64,000 bases of DNA from positions 1 to 64,000 of the forward strand of contig JAFUFW010000009.1 of assembly GCA_017469685.1 (NCBI GenBank), read 5' to 3'. The DNA is from Bacteroidaceae bacterium. GTDB taxonomy: Bacteria; Bacteroidota; Bacteroidia; Bacteroidales; Bacteroidaceae. The position numbers and the translations under genes are program-made. How positions within the stretch are numbered: position 1 is the first letter of the stretch; each line of letters opens with the position of its first letter. Of this stretch, positions 1,384-64,000 are shown one piece after another. A model generated the notes under the pieces. That model saw only the letters and a program-made list of their open reading frames with translations. It made no database searches and was not told where the DNA came from.

Positions 1384-1463
1384 ACAGCCCAAGGGTTTCG
1401 GCAAAAACCCTTGAGGGTTTTGACAATAACCCTTAAGGGTTCGGCGGATAACCCTTAAGGGTT
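1384..1463 (-). repeat. Palindrome array A: four 14-bp units at 22-bp period
   Basis: Four copies related to AACCCTTAAGGGTT, centred at 1390.5, 1412.5, 1434.5 and 1456.5, each separated by 8 bp. The two high-coordinate units are perfect; the next has TTGA in the middle; the lowest is degenerate. On the minus strand, the direction of the flanking tRNA-His and AlbA_2-type genes, the array ends in a T6 tract (1379-1384). Adjacent units are self-complementary and can pair as hairpins with 8-nt loops. The same 80-bp design occurs three more times in the window. Confidence 0.9.
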
Positions 1464-1499: not shown

Positions 1500-1540
1500 A
1501 GAAAAAAATGCCTGCACAGACTCGGGAGCGGTGCAGGCAT
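1500..1540 (-). terminator. Terminator of tRNA-His
   Basis: Inverted repeat ATGCCTGCAC (508-517 in the 1000s) / GTGCAGGCAT (531-540), followed on the minus strand by T7. It is placed directly downstream of the tRNA. Confidence 0.85.
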
Positions 1541-1567
1541 TGCCGGTTGAAAAGAGGATTAAGGAGG

Positions 1568-10934: not shown

Positions 10935-10995
10935 CGGCCAACCAAAAAGGCGTGTTCCACTGATGGAACACGCCTTTTTGGTTGGCCGTCTTTTT
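10935..10995 (+). terminator. Bidirectional terminator between the DUF349 gene and the TolC gene
   Basis: A perfect 25-bp inverted repeat (10935-10959 / 10964-10988) with a CTGA loop and T5 on the plus side; an A-rich flank gives T-runs on the minus side too. It serves both convergent transcription units. Confidence 0.95.
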
Positions 10996-20105: not shown

Positions 20106-21419
20106 ATGACCCTTCCTGAAGGTTTTGAAAGCTATTTCCGTCAGTCCTGGACGACGGAAGCCGTCGACGATCTCGTCAGCGGCCTCAGCGAGGAGGTGCC
20201 GGTGAGCATACGCATAAACCCGGCGCGCATGCCTGCCGACGCTTGGCCCGAAGGCGGCGAGGCACGTGTGCCGTGGTGCCACGAAGGCATCTACCTCAGC
20301 GAGCGCCCTCAGTTTACGGCCGACCCCCTCCTGCACGCAGGAGCCTACTACGTTCAGGAAGCAAGCTCAATGTTCATCGCTCATATAGTGCGATGCCTCG
20401 TCCGCCAATCTTCATCCTTAGTCAGCAATGCCCTCACCACCCTCGACCTCTGCGCCGCACCGGGAGGAAAGTCCACGCTTCTGCGCTCGCTACTGCCGCC
20501 AGGCTGCTCACTGGTAAGCAACGAACCCATGCGTCAGCGCGCCCAGGTGCTTGCCGAGAACCTTGCCAAATGGGGGGCTGTGAACACCGTTGTTACGCAG
20601 GCTTACGCCGACGACCTCGCACGCCTTGCCGCCAAGGACAAAGCATTCGAGGGTTTCGACCTCATCCTGGCCGACGTGCCCTGCTCTGGCGAAGGCATGA
20701 TGCGCAAGGAGGAGGCTGCCGTGAGCCAGTGGTCGCCGGAGTTCGTCAGCAACTGCGCAGCCCTGCAACGCTCCATCGTCGCCGACATCTGGTCAGCCTT
20801 GCGTCCCGGAGGCTTTATGATATACTCCACCTGCACCTTCAACCCCGAAGAGGATGAGCAGAACGTTGAGTGGATAGCCCGCGAGCTCGGGGCCGACATC
20901 ATCCCCATCCCCGCAGACCCCGCATGGGGAATCCTCGGCGACCCGCGCAAAGGTGCCGGCGCATCCACATCAGCCATTCCCAATTCATCATCATTCTCCC
21001 TTACCCCTTCCCCCCACCCTCTCCACCTCCCCTTCTGCCATTTCCTGCCAGGCCGCGTGCGAGGCGAAGGGTTCTTCTGCTCGTTGCTCCGGAAGCACGG
21101 CGAGACGGCAGGAACCTCAAAAAACGCCCATTTGATCGATTCGATAAGACGCCAGCCCTACGCCATGCCTACTGACCAGCTCGACGGCGAGGCCGCCCCA
21201 CGCATCGACCTCTCGCTCGACGATGCTTTTCGCTATCTGCAGCGCGAAGCCCTTACGCTCCCGCCCGACACACCCCGCGGCATAGTACAAGCAGGCTACC
21301 ATGGACAGCGCCTCGGGCTCATGAAGAACATCGGCTCAAGAGCCAACAACCTATACCCGAAAGAATGGCGCATACGCAGCGGATTTCTAAAGCCTCACTC
21401 GCTATTCTACGATGATTGA
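20106..21419 (+). CDS. RsmF/RsmB-type RNA (cytosine-C5) methyltransferase
   Basis: 437 residues. The SAM-binding motif is LDLCAAPGGKSTLL. The catalytic motif IV is ADVPCSGEGMMRK and the second Cys lies in YSTCTFNPEEDEQN. A C-terminal PUA-like region ends in SGFLKPHSLFYDD. It methylates cytosine in rRNA or tRNA; the exact target is not determined. Residues about 279-310 (20945-21035) are a Ser/Pro/His-rich insert placed just before the conserved HFLPGRVRGEGFF strand, unlike the rest of the protein. The gene begins 38 bases after the AspT-family gene. Confidence 0.9.
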   Translation: MTLPEGFESYFRQSWTTEAVDDLVSGLSEEVPVSIRINPARMPADAWPEGGEARVPWCHEGIYLSERPQFTADPLLHAGAYYVQEASSMFIAHIVRCLVRQSSSLVSNALTTLDLCAAPGGKSTLLRSLLPPGCSLVSNEPMRQRAQVLAENLAKWGAVNTVVTQAYADDLARLAAKDKAFEGFDLILADVPCSGEGMMRKEEAAVSQWSPEFVSNCAALQRSIVADIWSALRPGGFMIYSTCTFNPEEDEQNVEWIARELGADIIPIPADPAWGILGDPRKGAGASTSAIPNSSSFSLTPSPHPLHLPFCHFLPGRVRGEGFFCSLLRKHGETAGTSKNAHLIDSIRRQPYAMPTDQLDGEAAPRIDLSLDDAFRYLQREALTLPPDTPRGIVQAGYHGQRLGLMKNIGSRANNLYPKEWRIRSGFLKPHSLFYDD

Positions 21420-21447: not shown

Positions 21448-21527
21448 AACCCTTAAGGGTTATGCCCAAAACCCTTAACCCTTTTTGCGAAAACCCTTAA
21501 GGGTTCTGCCGATAACCCTTAAGGTTT
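21448..21527 (+). repeat. Palindrome array B: four 14-bp units at 22-bp period
   Basis: Units centred at 21454.5, 21476.5, 21498.5 and 21520.5. Units 1 and 3 are perfect AACCCTTAAGGGTT, unit 2 is AACCCTTAACCCTT and unit 4 is AACCCTTAAGGTTT, running into a T7 tract on the plus strand. Here the flanking genes (methyltransferase and RNase R) are on the plus strand, so the T-tract again marks the downstream end. It lies 28 bases after the methyltransferase stop. Confidence 0.9.
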
Positions 21528-33601: not shown

Positions 33602-33675
33602 AATGGTTGTCCTTTATTGTTTTGGTTCAACAATAAGGGGGCGCAGGCCGGGCCTGCTCTGAAACAATCTCGCTT

Positions 33676-33755
33676 ATCATCCCTACGGCGGCATTGCCCG
33701 CATCAGGTCTGAAGGGTCTGTTCTCAGCCCGCCACGCGGCGGACACCCCTTGATA
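33676..33755 (-). promoter_or_regulatory. TPP (THI-element) riboswitch
   Basis: On the minus strand the conserved blocks occur in order: AGGGGTG, CTGAGA, ACCCTT, CCTGAT, GGGCAATGCC and GTAGGGA. These are the hallmark boxes of the thiamine pyrophosphate riboswitch. It represses the downstream TonB receptor and PnuC-type transporter when TPP is abundant. Confidence 0.95.
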
Positions 33756-33764
33756 AATCGGTGG

Positions 33765-43464: not shown

Positions 43465-43550
43465 GTCATTGGGTACAATGCATCAACCTTATGGTTGTTA
43501 TTTTAGCATTTTTTTCTGTGGTTGCAAGCAGCCCAAATCTATCCACATTA
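43465..43550 (-). promoter_or_regulatory. Candidate SAM-II riboswitch before metK
   Basis: On the minus strand: TGTGG (P1 5' arm, 43543-43547), then GATTTGGG, a CTTGCAA block, CCACA (P1 3' arm), an A-rich stretch and GCTAAAA. The order and sequence match the SAM-II core (GAUUU...UUGCAA...GCUAAA). A CAACC-ATAA-GGTTG hairpin (43484-43497) and a CCCAA block (43469-43473) that could pair with the loop TTGGG follow. Confidence 0.7.
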
Positions 43551-43561
43551 TAAACTGGGCG

Positions 43562-49077: not shown

Positions 49078-49304
49078 CGAATTATATTCTAACTTATGCG
49101 CTTTTTCGCCTTAACTTTCGCGCTTTTTAAGCTGTTTTCACTCTTGAGGGAATGTGCGAGCCCCACCTTAGGGTCTGCGGCCACAACGAAAAAGCCCCGC
49201 GGCCATGGCGGCTGTGGGGCGTGCGGTTTTTAGTCTGCTTCACCGGCCCTCCGGGGGCGATGCCTACGGGCTTGCGGACGAAGGGGCGGAGGGGGGGGGC
49301 AAAA

Positions 49305-49384
49305 AAGGGTCAAGGGTTTCGCGGAAAACCCTTAAGGGTTATTGGCAAAACCCTTAAGGGTTCAGCGCATAACCCTTAAGGGTT
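49305..49384 (-). repeat. Palindrome array C: four 14-bp units at 22-bp period
   Basis: Units centred at 49311.5, 49333.5, 49355.5 and 49377.5. The three high-coordinate units are perfect AACCCTTAAGGGTT and the lowest is degenerate. On the minus strand the array ends in T6 (49301-49306). The TTAA of the highest unit supplies the stop codon of the propeller lipoprotein gene. Confidence 0.9.
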
Positions 49385-50911
49385 CTGGATGGCCTCTACG
49401 GCGACCTTTCCTTTGTAGGTCGCGAGCTCGGCATCGGTGAAGCGGACGACGTGGTTCATCTGCTCTTGGCTCAAGGGTATGGCATTACGCGAGAGTTCGG
49501 GGACGTTGAAGCTCTTCAGCAGCAACAGGTTGTACTCCGGATCGCGCTGCGGAAGCAGGAAGGCACGGTGCCCCTGGCCTGCGCTGTCGACGTAGGCGAT
49601 GTAGGTGCGGGTGTAGTCGTTGTCGTCGCGGCGTGTACTGAAGGCTATCCACCGACTGTTGGACGCCCACGAGGTGTAGCTCTCGCCGGCTCCGGAATTT
49701 GTCTCGCCGAGGGAATGCTGCTCGCCGGTTGCAAGGTCCTTCACCCACAGGTCGGCATCTTTATGGTAGAGATGGAACTGTCCGCAGCGGGCGAGCGAGT
49801 AGAGCAGGAAGCGACCGTCGGGGCTGGCAATGGGTTCGCTGGCGCTGAGGCCCATGGCGCTGGCTTCCACCTCGAGGCGCGGTGGGCCGAAGGCGTAGGT
49901 GAGGGTGTCGAAAGGCATGGACCAGATGTCGTAGAAGAGGCTGTCGTAGTGCAGGACAACGTCGGCCTCGAAGTTCTCGGCATCGAGTTTGGGCACACGC
50001 GCGTCGCAGTAGAAAAGGCGTGTGCCGTCGGCTGACCAGCAGGGGAAGGTCTCGAAGTGGTCGGGCGTGTGGAGGATGTGCTGCACCACATTGTGCTCGA
50101 CATCGTAGAACAGGAGGTCCGAGCCTGCGTCGTAGACTTCTATCTTCTCGCTGAAGTTGAAATGGAACGCCTGTGCAGTGAGGTTTGTGCTGTAGGCTAT
50201 GACGGGGTGCCGCGGGTTCCAGTTGCCATAGGCTCCGGAGGCGAGGATGCTGTCGTGGCGGATGATTATCTTATGCGCCTCGGTGCCGTCGGTGATTACC
50301 GTGCCCTTGTCGTTCTCACGGACGTGGAGGTACATCCGTTCGGCATTGTTAGCCTGGAACTTATGGCAGTTTATGCAGTGGGTTCCCTCGGCGCGGTGGT
50401 CGCGATAGTTCTCGTAGATGGTGCGGACATCGAAGTTCGTAAGGTCGCGCTGATAGATGCCCAGCTGCTGATAGAGCTCGTAGCCTGGCTCTATGAGGCG
50501 GTAGGTGACGAAGGGGTCGATATCCTCACGAGCCACATAGAGCTTGAACGCGGGATGGCGCACCCAGCCTTCAGGCCTGTGGGCGTAGACGCTGACCTCG
50601 ACATCGGCTCCCCGGGCTTCCGACAACACCCGGTGCCACTCGGCGCTATCAATGTCGAACTTGCCGTCTGCGGCTGCCCCGCAGACGATGCCCCCCACGA
50701 CTGCCACGAACTCCGAGGCTGTCGTGTCCGTGACCATGAAGTTGAGCGGAGCGATATTGGGCGGAATCGTAGCTCCGGCATAGTCGGGGTAGATGGCTGC
50801 CGAATCAGCCACGTCGGTGAAGGCCGCAGGCACCTTGGCCTGTCTGTTGCCGCAGCTTGCCAGCCAGGTTCCGACAAAAAGAAGTAATGTGTATAGAACT
50901 GTTTTCTGCAT
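49376..50911 (-). CDS. Lipoprotein with CxxCH heme motif and PD40 propeller (cassette copy 1)
   Basis: 511 residues. Lipobox LASC (C20). N-terminal domain 30-170 with YPDYAGATIPPNIAPLNF and LIEPGYELYQQLGIYQRDLTNF. A single c-type heme motif CINCH (179-183) follows. About 215-480 is a TolB/PD40-like beta-propeller with SADGTRLFY and SPDGRFLLYS blades. Heme attachment is inferred from the motif and export. The stop codon is provided by repeat array C. It is a paralogue of the gene at 52574-54094. Function unknown. Confidence 0.75.
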   Translation of the reverse strand: MQKTVLYTLLLFVGTWLASCGNRQAKVPAAFTDVADSAAIYPDYAGATIPPNIAPLNFMVTDTTASEFVAVVGGIVCGAAADGKFDIDSAEWHRVLSEARGADVEVSVYAHRPEGWVRHPAFKLYVAREDIDPFVTYRLIEPGYELYQQLGIYQRDLTNFDVRTIYENYRDHRAEGTHCINCHKFQANNAERMYLHVRENDKGTVITDGTEAHKIIIRHDSILASGAYGNWNPRHPVIAYSTNLTAQAFHFNFSEKIEVYDAGSDLLFYDVEHNVVQHILHTPDHFETFPCWSADGTRLFYCDARVPKLDAENFEADVVLHYDSLFYDIWSMPFDTLTYAFGPPRLEVEASAMGLSASEPIASPDGRFLLYSLARCGQFHLYHKDADLWVKDLATGEQHSLGETNSGAGESYTSWASNSRWIAFSTRRDDNDYTRTYIAYVDSAGQGHRAFLLPQRDPEYNLLLLKSFNVPELSRNAIPLSQEQMNHVVRFTDAELATYKGKVAVEAIQNP

Positions 50912-55880: not shown

Positions 55881-58823
55881 TTATTTCACCAGCACTTTCG
55901 TTCTGTTCAAGATGTAGATTCCTTTGCGTAGGCTACTGCCATCGAGACTCCGGCCGCTGAGGTCGAAGCAGGCAGAGGTCTTGGCCTGGGCGCTGCTATC
56001 GGCTATGCCGTCGATGAGGTGGTTGGGGTCTGAGAGTAGTATGCGCAACTCGCAATCGTTGGGATCGATTGTGGGCAGGGTGTAATCTCCAACAGCGATG
56101 TAGCCAGACAGAGCCTCAATTCTGATGCCTTCGGCCACCTCCCACTGTGGCTCGCCGTCGCGGTTCATGCTGAGGGTGATGTTTGGTTCTTCAACGGTGA
56201 CGCGGCTGAGGAATGTACCTGTGAGGTTGCAGTCGGAGGTGCCAGCCTTGGTGGCTACGGATGTACCAGCATAGAACGTCTCGGGTATGAGAGAGCCTTG
56301 TTCGTAGTCGCCGTCAGCGATGTAGACGAAGGGCTCACCAGCTTCCACGCCTTCGTAAGTTTCGTTGAGTCCGATGTATGTTGAGCCGGCCTCTATGAAT
56401 TGTCCGGCCACTTTATACATAGTTCCTTGTTCGACACGCGTGACATTGAACGGCCAGGTCATCACTTGTGCTGCTCCGGGCGTGACGTCAATGATGACAG
56501 GCAGATCTTCGCCGCCGTTGTCCAAAACGGCTTCAACGCGGAAAGCAGAGTTGGTCTCTATGCCTTCGGAATCCCAGCCTACGAGTTTGGCACCAGACTT
56601 CTGGGCATGGATGAGGTCGCAGCTCTCGCCTGTCATGAGGTTGTAGCCTTTCAGCAGCACCTTGCCTGCACCTTTACCAATGATAGTGAACAGCGTAGGC
56701 GTGGTGCTGACGGTGGCTCCGTAACCTTTGCCTCGAGTGTTGATGAAGAGTCCAGTGCCGCGGTTCTGCAAGGCATAGGTGCCTTCGCCTACGGGCAGGA
56801 ATCTGAAGTCGCTCATCTCGGGTGCTCCGAGTCCTCCTTCGCTAAAGTACAGTCCTGCTCCTGTCCTCACTTCGGAGGGTAATAGTGGTGTTGTGGCATT
56901 CTCGGCTATGGAGAGGGTCGTGCCGAAGAGCCCTTCGCCTTGTGTCTGTTCCCATCCGTAAGTATAGTACTCGTCTAAGGTGGCAAAATTAATATGATAC
57001 CACTTGGAGGGGTCTGGCGTGCTGTTGACCGCGCTTTGGAGCTCGTTGATGGCATCCCTGAGCAGCGCTATCTGCTCCGATACTTGGTGGGTTGTAAAGT
57101 CACCCGAGCTGATGATTTCTTCGGCCTGTTCTACGAGGTCGAGCAGATGGTTCTCTGTGCCTTCGGGGTAGAATCCCAGTCCATCGCCTATAGCGAAGGC
57201 GTTGGAAATTTCTTCGGCCTCGTCGATCGTATCCCATAGCTTATCGGCAATATTATATTCGCCCATGAAGGCGTCGTATGCTTCTTGCAACTCGGTGATA
57301 TGCTCCTCTGTGGTGGTGCCGCTCTCCACTTCCTTCGATGCCTCGATGGCTTGAGCGAAGCGGTTGACGATGGTCTGGTCGAGCGATGCCATGAAGTCGG
57401 GGTCTGCTTCGTCGTAAATGACCTCTACCTCTTCGAGCAAATTGCGGAGCCGGCAGTCGAGTGCCATCTGTAGCAGATCGTCAATTTCTTCTTCGGGCAC
57501 GGCTTCGAAGTAGTAGGTTGCACCGCCGCCCTCTTCGTTGCCATTCCAGTAGTAGTAGAGCATATTGTAGTTGACGTAGGGGATGAGGTAGTAGGTGTAG
57601 GTGCTGTAGCCTTCGTCGAGGTATGGACAGAATGATCCGTTGTTCTTAGGATACATCCAAATGCTTTCGAGGTTGTCGTTTCCGAGAATCTTCCACTGGT
57701 AGTTGTAGGAGGTGCCTTTGCAGACGTACTGGTTTGTGTAGATGCTGCGCATGCGGTAGTACGAGGAGCCTTCTTGTGCGGGCGTGAACTCCCAAATGAG
57801 TTTAGTCTTGCCTTCATCCGTGAGCATAAAGTTGGCATCATCTACAATGTAGATACAGCTGTTATACGCCTGCAGGGCCTTGCCGCTGTGGCGCCCGCCA
57901 TATTCTGCCAGGCCGGGTCGGACATAGTAGTATCCTGGCGTGAAGGGCACGCGTGTGAGCATCGATACTGCGGCCACGGCTTCATTGAGCCGGTTGTAGG
58001 CTTCTTCATACTCTTCCTCGGTGTGGCCCGTCTCCTCCACGGTGAGAGGTGAGGCCTGGTCCATGGCTTCGTAGAACTCTTCCACCACGTCTTCGTCCTG
58101 CAAGCATCCGGGGTCGTTGCCCAGGGTGTAGACATCATTGAGGTGTGCATTGTAGAGGTCCACCAGTAGTGGCAGGTATGACTCTATTTCTTTTTCCACA
58201 GCTTCGGTGAAGGTGAACCAGCAGCTTCCGCCGCCCCAGAATCCGCCTTTGACGGTGACGGCGTAGGAATCGTCGTAGTAGGCATTCAGGCAGTATGGTT
58301 TGCCGTCGGATGACTCGCAAACGATGTAGAAGTCGTCGGAGGAGGCGCCCGAGGTCGCTGCTCCTACCAGGCCTTCGTCAGCGAGCACGGGCACTAGTGC
58401 CACGGGCGTGGCGTTTGCCAGCCCGGACCAGTAGCAGCTGATCCATCCTTGCGCAGAGCTGGTATTCTCTACGCCGTATGCGCTGAAGTAGCAGTCGCGC
58501 TTCTCGAAGAAGATGTAGTATCCGGGGTAGCCCAGCACTTCCTGCCCAGCATCGATGAGTTGTATGGCGTAGTCCTCGTTGGGCTCTCTTTCGAGCGCCG
58601 TCCATTCTGGTTGTGCGTAGGTGCTGCCTTCGTAGGTGTAGATGCCGTAGGATAGGTACTTGGGAGCTTGAGTGCTTCCATTGTAGGTGTACTGCGAGCT
58701 GATGAATACTCGGTCGCCGTCGGCGAAGCTCGTCTTGATGTCGCCCGGGAATGTGTAGGCGAGAGCTGTTGCAGGCCAGATGGCGGCCAGCGTAAGCATG
58801 AGGTTAAAGATACGGTTCTTCAT
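55881..58823 (-). CDS. Large secreted protein with C-terminal sorting-like tail
   Basis: 980 residues from ATG 58823, which begins the signal peptide MKNRIFNLMLTLAAIWP; an upstream ATG adds 35 unlikely residues. Tyr- and Gly-rich beta domains are separated by helical FIVAR-like stretches (EEYEEAYNRLNEAVAAVSML; HITELQEAYDAFMGEY). The module WYHINFATLDEYYTYGW and the strand GEPFVYIADGDYEQG are shared with the protein at 62571-64000. The tail is CFDLSGRSLDGSSLRKGIYILNRTKVLVK-like (type A sorting). No catalytic motif was recognised. Confidence 0.72.
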   Translation of the reverse strand: MKNRIFNLMLTLAAIWPATALAYTFPGDIKTSFADGDRVFISSQYTYNGSTQAPKYLSYGIYTYEGSTYAQPEWTALEREPNEDYAIQLIDAGQEVLGYPGYYIFFEKRDCYFSAYGVENTSSAQGWISCYWSGLANATPVALVPVLADEGLVGAATSGASSDDFYIVCESSDGKPYCLNAYYDDSYAVTVKGGFWGGGSCWFTFTEAVEKEIESYLPLLVDLYNAHLNDVYTLGNDPGCLQDEDVVEEFYEAMDQASPLTVEETGHTEEEYEEAYNRLNEAVAAVSMLTRVPFTPGYYYVRPGLAEYGGRHSGKALQAYNSCIYIVDDANFMLTDEGKTKLIWEFTPAQEGSSYYRMRSIYTNQYVCKGTSYNYQWKILGNDNLESIWMYPKNNGSFCPYLDEGYSTYTYYLIPYVNYNMLYYYWNGNEEGGGATYYFEAVPEEEIDDLLQMALDCRLRNLLEEVEVIYDEADPDFMASLDQTIVNRFAQAIEASKEVESGTTTEEHITELQEAYDAFMGEYNIADKLWDTIDEAEEISNAFAIGDGLGFYPEGTENHLLDLVEQAEEIISSGDFTTHQVSEQIALLRDAINELQSAVNSTPDPSKWYHINFATLDEYYTYGWEQTQGEGLFGTTLSIAENATTPLLPSEVRTGAGLYFSEGGLGAPEMSDFRFLPVGEGTYALQNRGTGLFINTRGKGYGATVSTTPTLFTIIGKGAGKVLLKGYNLMTGESCDLIHAQKSGAKLVGWDSEGIETNSAFRVEAVLDNGGEDLPVIIDVTPGAAQVMTWPFNVTRVEQGTMYKVAGQFIEAGSTYIGLNETYEGVEAGEPFVYIADGDYEQGSLIPETFYAGTSVATKAGTSDCNLTGTFLSRVTVEEPNITLSMNRDGEPQWEVAEGIRIEALSGYIAVGDYTLPTIDPNDCELRILLSDPNHLIDGIADSSAQAKTSACFDLSGRSLDGSSLRKGIYILNRTKVLVK

Positions 58824-58888
58824 AATTGATCGAGTTTTATATGAATGTTGTGTGAGGGGAATTGTTGGAAGGTGTGAGGGTAATAATT

Positions 58889-58924
58889 GGAAAGGGCTCA
58901 GCAAGGCTGTGCTGAACCCTTTCC
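58889..58924 (-). terminator. Terminator of the M60 peptidase gene
   Basis: GGAAAGGGCTCAGCA (58889-58903) pairs with TGCTGAACCCTTTCC (58910-58924) with one mismatch, 8 bases after the stop codon. Confidence 0.75.
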
Positions 58925-58932
58925 GCATGTGG

Positions 58933-62260: not shown

Positions 62261-62340
62261 AAGGCTCAAGGGCTTCGCAGAAAACCCTTAAGGGTTCAGG
62301 GCATAACCCTTAAGGGTTTTGTCCGAAACCCTTGGCCTCA
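62261..62340 (-). repeat. Palindrome array D: four 14-bp units at 22-bp period
   Basis: Units centred at 62267.5, 62289.5, 62311.5 and 62333.5. The two inner units are perfect and the outer two are degenerate. On the minus strand the array ends in a short T-rich tract (T4). It lies between the terminator of the gene at 62571 and the promoter of the M60 gene. The rest of the gap 62053-62570 holds no supported gene. Confidence 0.88.
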
Positions 62341-62493: not shown

Positions 62494-62536
62494 AGCAAAG
62501 GGGACTGTGCCTATGTCTGGCACAGCCCCCTTTGCT
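62494..62536 (-). terminator. Terminator of the secreted protein gene at 62571
   Basis: An 18-bp inverted repeat (62494-62511 / 62519-62536) with one mismatch and a 7-nt loop, 34 bases after the stop codon. Confidence 0.8.
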
Positions 62537-62570: not shown

Positions 62571-64000
62571 TTATTTCACCACGACCTTCGTGCCGCCGAG
62601 GATATAGACGCCACGGCCGAACTTCTTGAGGTCATTGAGGTTGGCGCTGCGGCTGAGCAGACGACCATCGACGGTGTAGAGTTCGCTGCGCTTAGCCACA
62701 TGGCTGAGCGTTGCGGCGATGCCGTCCTCGAGCTCGGTGATCTCGAAGGTGTAGTCGTCGCGCAGTTCAAACTCCTCGCAGCCCTGCACGTAAGCAGTGT
62801 AGGCAGGAACGGGAATCATGGACATCGTAGCGCTCTTGCTCACCACGAAGGTGTTGCCCTGAGCTGCGAGTGCCCCCTTGGGCAGCGAAGCGATGGTGCT
62901 GTAGGTGCCCTTGAGGAGTGATGCCTCAATAGCGTCGTGGGTGAAGTCGTAGCCATGGCGGAAGGCCACGGGCTCAGCAGCGTTCTCCTCGTTGTAGTAC
63001 TCGGTTTCGCCGTTGATGTAGACGAACGGGCGGCCTGGGGCTACCTCATCCTTTATCTCAGCGAGCTTGACAACGTTGTCCTCAACAGCTGCCACATCGT
63101 ACACAGCCACGTCACCGACAAGGATGTTCACAGGGAAGCAGAAGGTGCTGACAGTTCCGGGCACGAGGTTGATCTGGAATTCTGTGCCGTCGTAGTCAGA
63201 GGCTACATCCTCGACTTCCTCGATGTAGAGACCGCTGCGGCTGCCGGCCGTATTCTCGCACCCAGTGACGAGGCGGTTCTGTACGCGCTGTGCGTGGAGG
63301 TTGTTCTGGCTGGCGCCAGAGATGAGGTTCTGGGCAGCAATGAGGTTCTGGCCGTAGCCGAGAGGAGTGACGTTGAAGACAGAGGGAATGACGTCGAGCG
63401 TAGTGTTCTCACCGCGCACGAACAGGCCCGTAGCCTTGTTCTGGAGCACGTAGGCGCTGTCGCCGACGTTGATGAAGCGGAAGAGCGAGAGGTCGCGACG
63501 GCTGATGTCGGCGTCGTCGTCGAAGAAGAGGCGGATGCCGCGCACGAGGTCTTCGTCGTACTCAAGCGGGAGGACGTTGTTGATGGTGACGGTAACTTCC
63601 TCACCCTCGTCGTCGGTTGTCGTCTCGGTGACTTGGTCGAGATAAGCAGCTGTGAGGTACTTGTCCCACAGTGCCTCGTTGGTCTGGATGCCATTGCTCT
63701 CGGTGGGCTCGTTGGTGGCTACATCCCAGCCATTGGCCTCGAATACCTCCTTCGAGCCGAAGTGGATGCGATACCACTTGCCCTCCTGAATCTTGTTGGC
63801 TGCCTCAATCATGCCATCGAGCTGGGCGGTGAGCCTGTCGATGAAGTCCTGACTGGTCGACAGCTTGTAGACCTTGGCATCGTCGTAAGCCTTAGCCTCT
63901 TCCACGGTCTGCTTGAGCTGAGCAGCCAGGCTGCCGTCGGTCCAAGCACCAGGATCAGAGCTGATGACCACGCCATTGGCTATGCCCTCGGCCTTAGCGA
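62571..64000 (-). CDS. Large secreted protein with sorting-like tail (N-terminus outside window)
   Basis: The frame is open to the window edge, so the start is missing; a GTG at 63971 is internal. At least 476 residues are present. Features: helical stretch (AAQLKQTVEEAKAYDDAKVY), module WYRIHFGSKEVFEANGWDV, strands SAYVLQNKATGLFVRG and GRPFVYINGETEYY, and tail LYTVDGRLL...GRGVYILGGTKVVVK. These match the protein at 55881-58823, so the two are paralogues flanking the M60 gene. Function unknown; export by T9SS is inferred. Confidence 0.75.
   Translation of the reverse strand, partial: AKAEGIANGVVISSDPGAWTDGSLAAQLKQTVEEAKAYDDAKVYKLSTSQDFIDRLTAQLDGMIEAANKIQEGKWYRIHFGSKEVFEANGWDVATNEPTESNGIQTNEALWDKYLTAAYLDQVTETTTDDEGEEVTVTINNVLPLEYDEDLVRGIRLFFDDDADISRRDLSLFRFINVGDSAYVLQNKATGLFVRGENTTLDVIPSVFNVTPLGYGQNLIAAQNLISGASQNNLHAQRVQNRLVTGCENTAGSRSGLYIEEVEDVASDYDGTEFQINLVPGTVSTFCFPVNILVGDVAVYDVAAVEDNVVKLAEIKDEVAPGRPFVYINGETEYYNEENAAEPVAFRHGYDFTHDAIEASLLKGTYSTIASLPKGALAAQGNTFVVSKSATMSMIPVPAYTAYVQGCEEFELRDDYTFEITELEDGIAATLSHVAKRSELYTVDGRLLSRSANLNDLKKFGRGVYILGGTKVVVK

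Follow-up and report, generated by a model that had tools for sequence, protein, structure and literature searches.

The first array in this stretch of DNA (the window, 64 kb in full) raises the question of what a row of short palindromes, set at one fixed step, is doing between genes. The original prediction placed four such arrays here, with palindrome centres 22 bp apart and 8-bp spacers, and this is what we read in the sequence. The four arrays are built of 14-bp near-palindromes of the form AACCCTTAAGGGTT, as follows.

Array A, 1384..1463: units 1384-1397 (outer half degenerate), 1406-1419, 1428-1441 and 1450-1463
Array B, 21448..21527: units starting at 21448, 21470, 21492 and 21514
Array C, 49305..49384: units at 49305 (outer half degenerate), 49327, 49349 and 49371
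Array D, 62261..62340: units at 62261 and 62327 (outer halves degenerate), 62283 and 62305

The outer half of the first unit is thus degenerate in A, C and D, and the array B unit at 21470 has its right half flipped (AACCCTTAACCCTT). Array B starts 28 bp beyond the stop codon of an RsmF-like gene (20106-21419), and the final unit of array C overlaps the stop codon of the minus-strand gene 49376-50911. At up to three mismatches the window holds 14 matches to AACCCTTAAGGGTT, where 1.29 are expected and none of 100 shuffles reached 14. An Rfam 15 scan of the window gave three matches above the gathering score, none of them on an array. TPP and SAM-II riboswitches lie on the minus strand at 33663-33760 and 43493-43552. 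A second type of recurring palindrome (GTGTTCCAC...GTGGAACAC and GTGTCCCACCATGGTGGGACAC), forming terminator-like hairpins, is found at 10938-10985 of the window and at loci L128 and L138.

Number, step and spacers of the arrays

The draft genome, 87% complete, totals 2.83 Mb over 94 contigs. It contains 210 of the palindromes at one mismatch or fewer; the same pattern written backwards, our control, gave none. A model of arrays A-D built from sequence only, together with a pattern listing, yielded 82 places, four of them inside the window, and the 78 others were retrieved with up to 1.5 kb of flank per side. Two more listings (one of which drew on 100 of the 116 A-class matches) added five places, for a total of at least 87. 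The 82 places take in 197 of the 210 palindromes and the five added places at least seven more, so that about six palindromes were not located.

The 82 places contain 175 intervals between neighbouring palindromes; 169 of them measure 22 bp, and the others 44 bp (three), 23, 67 and 104 bp. The number of units varies from two to seven: under a lax rule 42 of the 82 arrays have four, 29 five, six have six, one has seven, two have three and two have two, while a strict rule (10 of 14 bases) gives 41 arrays with four, 27 with three, nine with five, one with six and four with fewer than three. The original prediction had given every array four units and 80 bp, and had held that variable unit number and spacing, or random positions inside genes, would speak against one functional element. 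Since unit number varies, one fixed 80-bp element is too strict a description; spacing is constant, however, and none of the arrays lies inside a convincing gene, although five share sequence with ORFs of 72-116 aa or with one left open by the start of a contig (genes were called by ORF length).

The palindromes are strongly conserved, whereas 257 of 345 spacers are distinct, a count that takes in the degenerate outer units. Spacers tend to be AT-rich at their edges and GC-rich in their middle part. Read as G/C versus A/T, the repeat is CCC TTAA GGG TTTT (GC-rich four) AAAA, with two dyads, at the palindrome centre and at the spacer centre, 11 bp apart; half-units that are flipped (AACCCTTAACCCTT, AAGGGTTAAGGGTT) or mixed (AAGGCTT) still fit this pattern. 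Because spacer sequence is free and spacer length is fixed, a row of sites at the DNA level is favoured over RNA hairpins, and the linker spacers, which are left over in any pairing scheme, are equally rigid, which also counts for DNA-level rows. The protein array suggested by the original prediction, with its predicted binding, fits such a rigid step with freely changing spacers. The accompanying idea that all palindromes lie on one face of the DNA holds only approximately: at a helical repeat of 10.5 bp two turns take about 21 bp, so that a row with a 22-bp step would wind slowly, drifting by about 34 degrees per step.

We saw no leader, tail or terminal repeat that is constant among the arrays, and A/T runs are all that their flanks have in common. 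An end variant, GCCC, is present at array ends. We rejected the idea that arrays have a strand polarity marked by a fixed GCCC end, since end types and T runs are independent of the direction of transcription. Our preferred reading, which we hold tentatively, is that the arrays are phased DNA docking rows, bound by a predicted protein and serving as chromosome landmarks.

Terminator-like features and base pairing

The main rival to landmark rows sees the arrays as intrinsic terminators working in both directions, or as hairpins at mRNA 3' ends, in which neighbouring units pair over the 8-nt spacer and a flanking T run stops transcription of either strand. We regard this as possible but on the whole unlikely. 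Terminator-like scores are obtained for arrays A, B and D on either strand and for C on the minus strand, and all four show the hairpin followed by a T run on the transcribed strand that defines an intrinsic terminator; selection on base pairing, which would also be expected, was not found, with partial exceptions in the pairing of neighbours at 13 of 14 positions and in five-unit arrays (below). T runs average 4.07 at the ends of arrays vs 2.66 within them, and A runs 3.70 vs 2.71, which counts for terminators; the T runs show no agreement with the direction of transcription. At the 84 gene ends that face an array, the array itself scores as a terminator in 41 cases.

Gene arrangement can be counted for terminators as well as for landmark rows. 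Genes flank 73 of the 82 arrays on both sides, as co-directional (42), convergent (21) or divergent (10) pairs; the baseline, taken from one 64-kb window only, is 41 gene pairs with five convergent and five divergent. Convergent pairs are thus in excess at arrays (21 of 73 vs 5 of 41, P about 1e-4). Among the co-directional pairs the upstream stop is the nearer one in 26 of 42 (P 0.08), a weak trend.

Three of the four arrays in the window have a separate terminator close by, which argues against the terminator reading.

1507..1541, minus strand: separate terminator-like hairpin and T run between tRNA-His (1566-1641) and array A
49189..49220, minus strand: GC-rich hairpin and T run beyond array C, seen by eye and not flagged by the terminator scans
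62495..62535, minus strand: separate terminator-like hairpin between the minus-strand gene 62571-63971 and array D, from the terminator scan

Separate terminators were found at 20 of the 84 array-facing gene ends and at 6 of the 19 array-free ends in the window, with a scan that misses bulged stems; these counts are not decisive on whether arrays replace terminators. Totals of terminator-like sites in the window do not exceed those of shuffles (27 vs 20.1, 14 vs 17.8 and 14 vs 15.6), and the terminator reading leaves unexplained both the fixed linker lengths and the 8-kb exclusion between arrays described below.

If the arrays worked through pairing, changes in one arm should be matched in the other. 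The original prediction saw a hint of such selection, on RNA or cruciform pairing, in array A. The compensated pair there is readable in the sequence, but the genome-wide pattern is absent: at unit centres, compensated pairs of neighbours number 8 (shuffles 10.0) and C-A mismatches 67 (shuffles 64.5). When units were permuted between loci, the resulting arrays folded more stably than the real ones in all 60 permutations, whichever strand was folded. The complementarity of units 1-2 and 3-4 is not above shuffles in the 42 four-unit arrays of this genome (z 1.1 and -0.5) or in 15 four-unit arrays of congeners (z 1.0 and 0.7), and arrays with no complementary units at all exist (L135, L177, G503). 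All of this weighs against terminators. In their favour are the complementarity of units 1-2 in five-unit arrays (z 2.6), the pairing at 13 or more of 14 positions of neighbours that are both variants (14 vs 8.7 in shuffles, with a maximum of 16 in 500), and the matching arm changes seen by eye upstream of susG in G436 and G405. On permutation folding, unit complementarity and centre compensation, we rejected RNA covariation as the main signal and as a general rule. Taken together, the results do not support base pairing as what selection keeps, although individual loci and a few of the sub-tests point that way.

A related proposal is cruciform extrusion by the palindromes, or a transcript acting through self-pairing units. 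The canonical unit is indeed a perfect 14-bp palindrome, and array A has its one compensated pair; however, compensated pairs do not exceed shuffles, as above, and units with flipped halves, which cannot form a cruciform, stay in phase. We consider this proposal very improbable.

With intrinsic terminators, then, the arrays share hairpin-capable repeats followed by T runs, often 3' of genes; they differ in their sequence-specific units, their rigid linkers, the overall absence of pairing selection, and the separate terminators at A, C and D.

Spacing along the chromosome and known dispersed elements

Regular spacing, in a post hoc test, is the strongest ground for leaving a purely RNA reading, and it strengthens the protein-array idea. 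The 87 places give 38 intervals within contigs, of 8.3-44.6 kb (mean 20.7 kb, CV 0.40). With the same number of arrays per contig placed at random, about 13 intervals shorter than 8 kb would be expected, and the observed minimum and CV were each unmatched in 20,000 simulations (the assembly is a draft, and the test post hoc). Those contigs whose exact palindromes are fully listed contribute 11 intervals, and there P is 0.0004 (minimum) and 0.0016 (CV). A set in which 13 hypothetical arrays, placed at random, join the 82 would have a mean of 7.1 short intervals, vs 17.1 for a wholly random set. For seven of the 82 arrays the contig ends no more than 300 bp away, where 1.6 such arrays are expected; some assembly breaks thus fall at arrays, and there is no obvious route from there to the 8-kb void.

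What has to be explained is a fixed 22-bp step, free spacers, intergenic position, an excess between convergent genes, regular spacing, and the retention of some positions in relatives. A step that tolerates substitution but not a change of length, conserved sites, independence from pairing on the whole, and mutual exclusion together lead us to protein-bound landmark rows. The predicted protein would occupy the 14-bp palindromes in phase along a row, perhaps cooperatively, and the rows, separated by 8.3 kb or more on the contigs studied, could then act as landmarks that organise the chromosome. They may play a part in DNA topology or in the structure of the nucleoid, for instance by recruiting a nucleoid protein or gyrase, by analogy with BIMEs in E. 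coli. Against landmark rows stand the half-sites that can be flipped or altered, unlike those of a strict dimer site, the terminator-like character of A-D, the T runs that are longest at array ends, and the sub-tests that lean towards pairing.

Dispersed bacterial palindromes are usually viewed as mobile REP elements or terminators. If landmark rows are the right reading, the fixed step, free spacers and exclusion of at least 8 kb would amount to a sequence-defined set of chromosome landmarks, and chromosome folding and insulation would become directly testable; to our knowledge few such chromosome sites are known in this bacterial group.

REP elements and BIMEs resemble the arrays in being short extragenic palindromes, present in dozens to hundreds per genome and in small groups (PMC3733652, PMC6379681, PMC2817692). 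The definition of REP/REPIN (PMC3733652) includes a GTAG or CGTC tag at one palindrome end. The consensus unit AACCCTTAAGGGTT has no such tag. A RAYT-driven REP family is not supported, as this genome (87% complete) has no match to the Y1 (RAYT) transposase PF01797; one match occurs in the congener G465. The hallmark of BIMEs is binding of DNA gyrase or IHF, and the arrays differ from REP/BIME elements in their fixed 22-bp tandem step and regular chromosomal spacing.

Another comparison comes from Porphyromonas gingivalis, which we take to belong to the same order as this bacterium. Its 23-nt minisatellite MITE, BrickBuilt, is likewise intergenic, of similar period and dispersed in many copies, and its description (PMC4596501) gives 19 elements of 1 to 22.8 repeats of 23 nt, without spacers, whose leader and tail carry inverted ends. 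The present arrays differ in occupying at least 87 places, mostly with three to five palindromic units, variable 8-bp spacers and a 22-bp step. The best reading of these comparisons is that the arrays may work like BIMEs yet fall outside both REP/RAYT and BrickBuilt.

The families parS, matS and DNA uptake sequences are dispersed short sites, single or paired, with known readers. The arrays are like them in being dispersed short sites read by a DNA-binding protein (here a predicted one), and unlike them in forming rows of about four. A phage origin was rejected, viral contigs having no exact match to the two-unit pattern. The original prediction knew of no described element with this design, and our literature search, with most subscription journals outside its reach, likewise found no published description.

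Arrays in relatives and in another phylum

A search of the genome and its relatives had been proposed with the original prediction. It extended the four arrays to the at least 87 places above, and the exact two-unit pattern was found in only one of 399 family genomes sampled, that of this bacterium itself. The G/C-A/T version of the pattern occurs in 15 of 139 genomes of the genus, this one included (controls zero), with 122 copies here and 1 to 14 in the other positive congeners.

Some array positions are kept. In 5 of 15 cases array pieces of G465 lie beside genes that flank arrays in this genome; array D is among these shared places, adjoining the same genes in that congener (L222). Orthologous arrays agree at 211 of 280 unit bases and 54 of 120 spacer bases, and their flanks at about 31%, in a register chosen on the units. 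A MITE would be recognised by terminal inverted repeats, a target-site duplication or a clean empty site; at locus C the array is absent from G110, where the intergenic DNA is too diverged to align. A hairpin similar to that at 49189..49220 follows the same gene there (by eye). Upstream of a susG-like amylase gene (L322-L335), 22-bp arrays of differing sequence occupy the same place in at least 9 of 23 species pieces, this one included (by eye; the G412 and G445 pieces are mis-registered in this comparison).

Since the SusG pieces were chosen for having an array, we left them out of the test of a genus-wide habit, for which only the RsmF pieces are fair. Around RsmF, 29 congener pieces (about 4 kb) have lag-22 tandem repeats at 77% identity or more 11 times, lag 16 three times, and each other lag tested from 17 to 32 once or not at all; at a looser threshold of 68% the counts are 15 for lag 22, 14 for lag 16 and 10 for lag 17. 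RsmF pieces from other Bacteroidales have 22-bp tandem repeats twice in 29. Several congener units are unrelated to AACCCTTAAGGGTT (L351, L205, L198, L200, L342, L197) and often have a short palindromic core, such as ACTAGT, CGGCCG, ACCGGT or CCATGG. Longer arrays, with as many as about 12 nearly identical 22-bp units that change gradually from one to the next, occur in G445/G491 (L237, L241, L256).

In the loci retrieved from this genome, with arrays masked (229 kb), there is no other 22-bp tandem repeat at 72% identity, so that a single unit appears dominant in this species and seems to have taken over. Weaker two-copy 22-bp repeats of other sequence lie in the window at 58847-58897 (inside the frame 55881-58928) and at 49089-49134 (between genes), and the susG piece of this genome has one more.

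These arrays of relatives bear on a further explanation, a mobile or selfish satellite whose 22-bp units spread and expand by duplication, close neighbours being barred by target immunity or lost by recombination. The many unrelated units in 22-bp tandem arrays of congeners would suit it, as would the drifting near-identical units of G445, the lack of an array at locus C in G110, and the variants shared within an array as direct copies (9 vs 2.2). Almost all spacers differ, however, so that the copies are not recent; some arrays have retained both place and unit variants across species; and neither a Y1/RAYT gene match (in this genome, 87% complete) nor a leader, tail or terminal repeat was seen. 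We consider a satellite improbable.

A scan of named-species genomes gave at least 69 stretches; among the matches listed, 62 are from Candidatus Spyradenecus faecavium (Lentisphaerota) and the other seven from MAGs labelled Bacteroidaceae or Prevotellaceae. The Spyradenecus arrays, all drawn by pattern, have the 22-bp step too; of 63, 40 consist of four units and 20 of three. Gene context in Spyradenecus was left aside as unreliable at its G+C content. The exclusion is not general, because two of the Spyradenecus arrays (L032) are 4 kb apart on one contig.

Landmark rows could be extended to a genus-wide chromosome-spacing system, with about four 22-bp-phased sites per row, a fast-evolving predicted DNA-binding protein, units particular to each species, topological or nucleoid anchors every 8-45 kb, and recurrence of the design in another phylum (Candidatus Spyradenecus); this wider proposal is speculative, and we think it rather unlikely in full. 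A 22-bp step common to unrelated units across the genus allows a concrete search for the predicted protein that would read it.

In the Spyradenecus loci L023-L091 the arrays, built of the same 14-mer, are followed by an in-phase conserved module that ends in ACTTAT.
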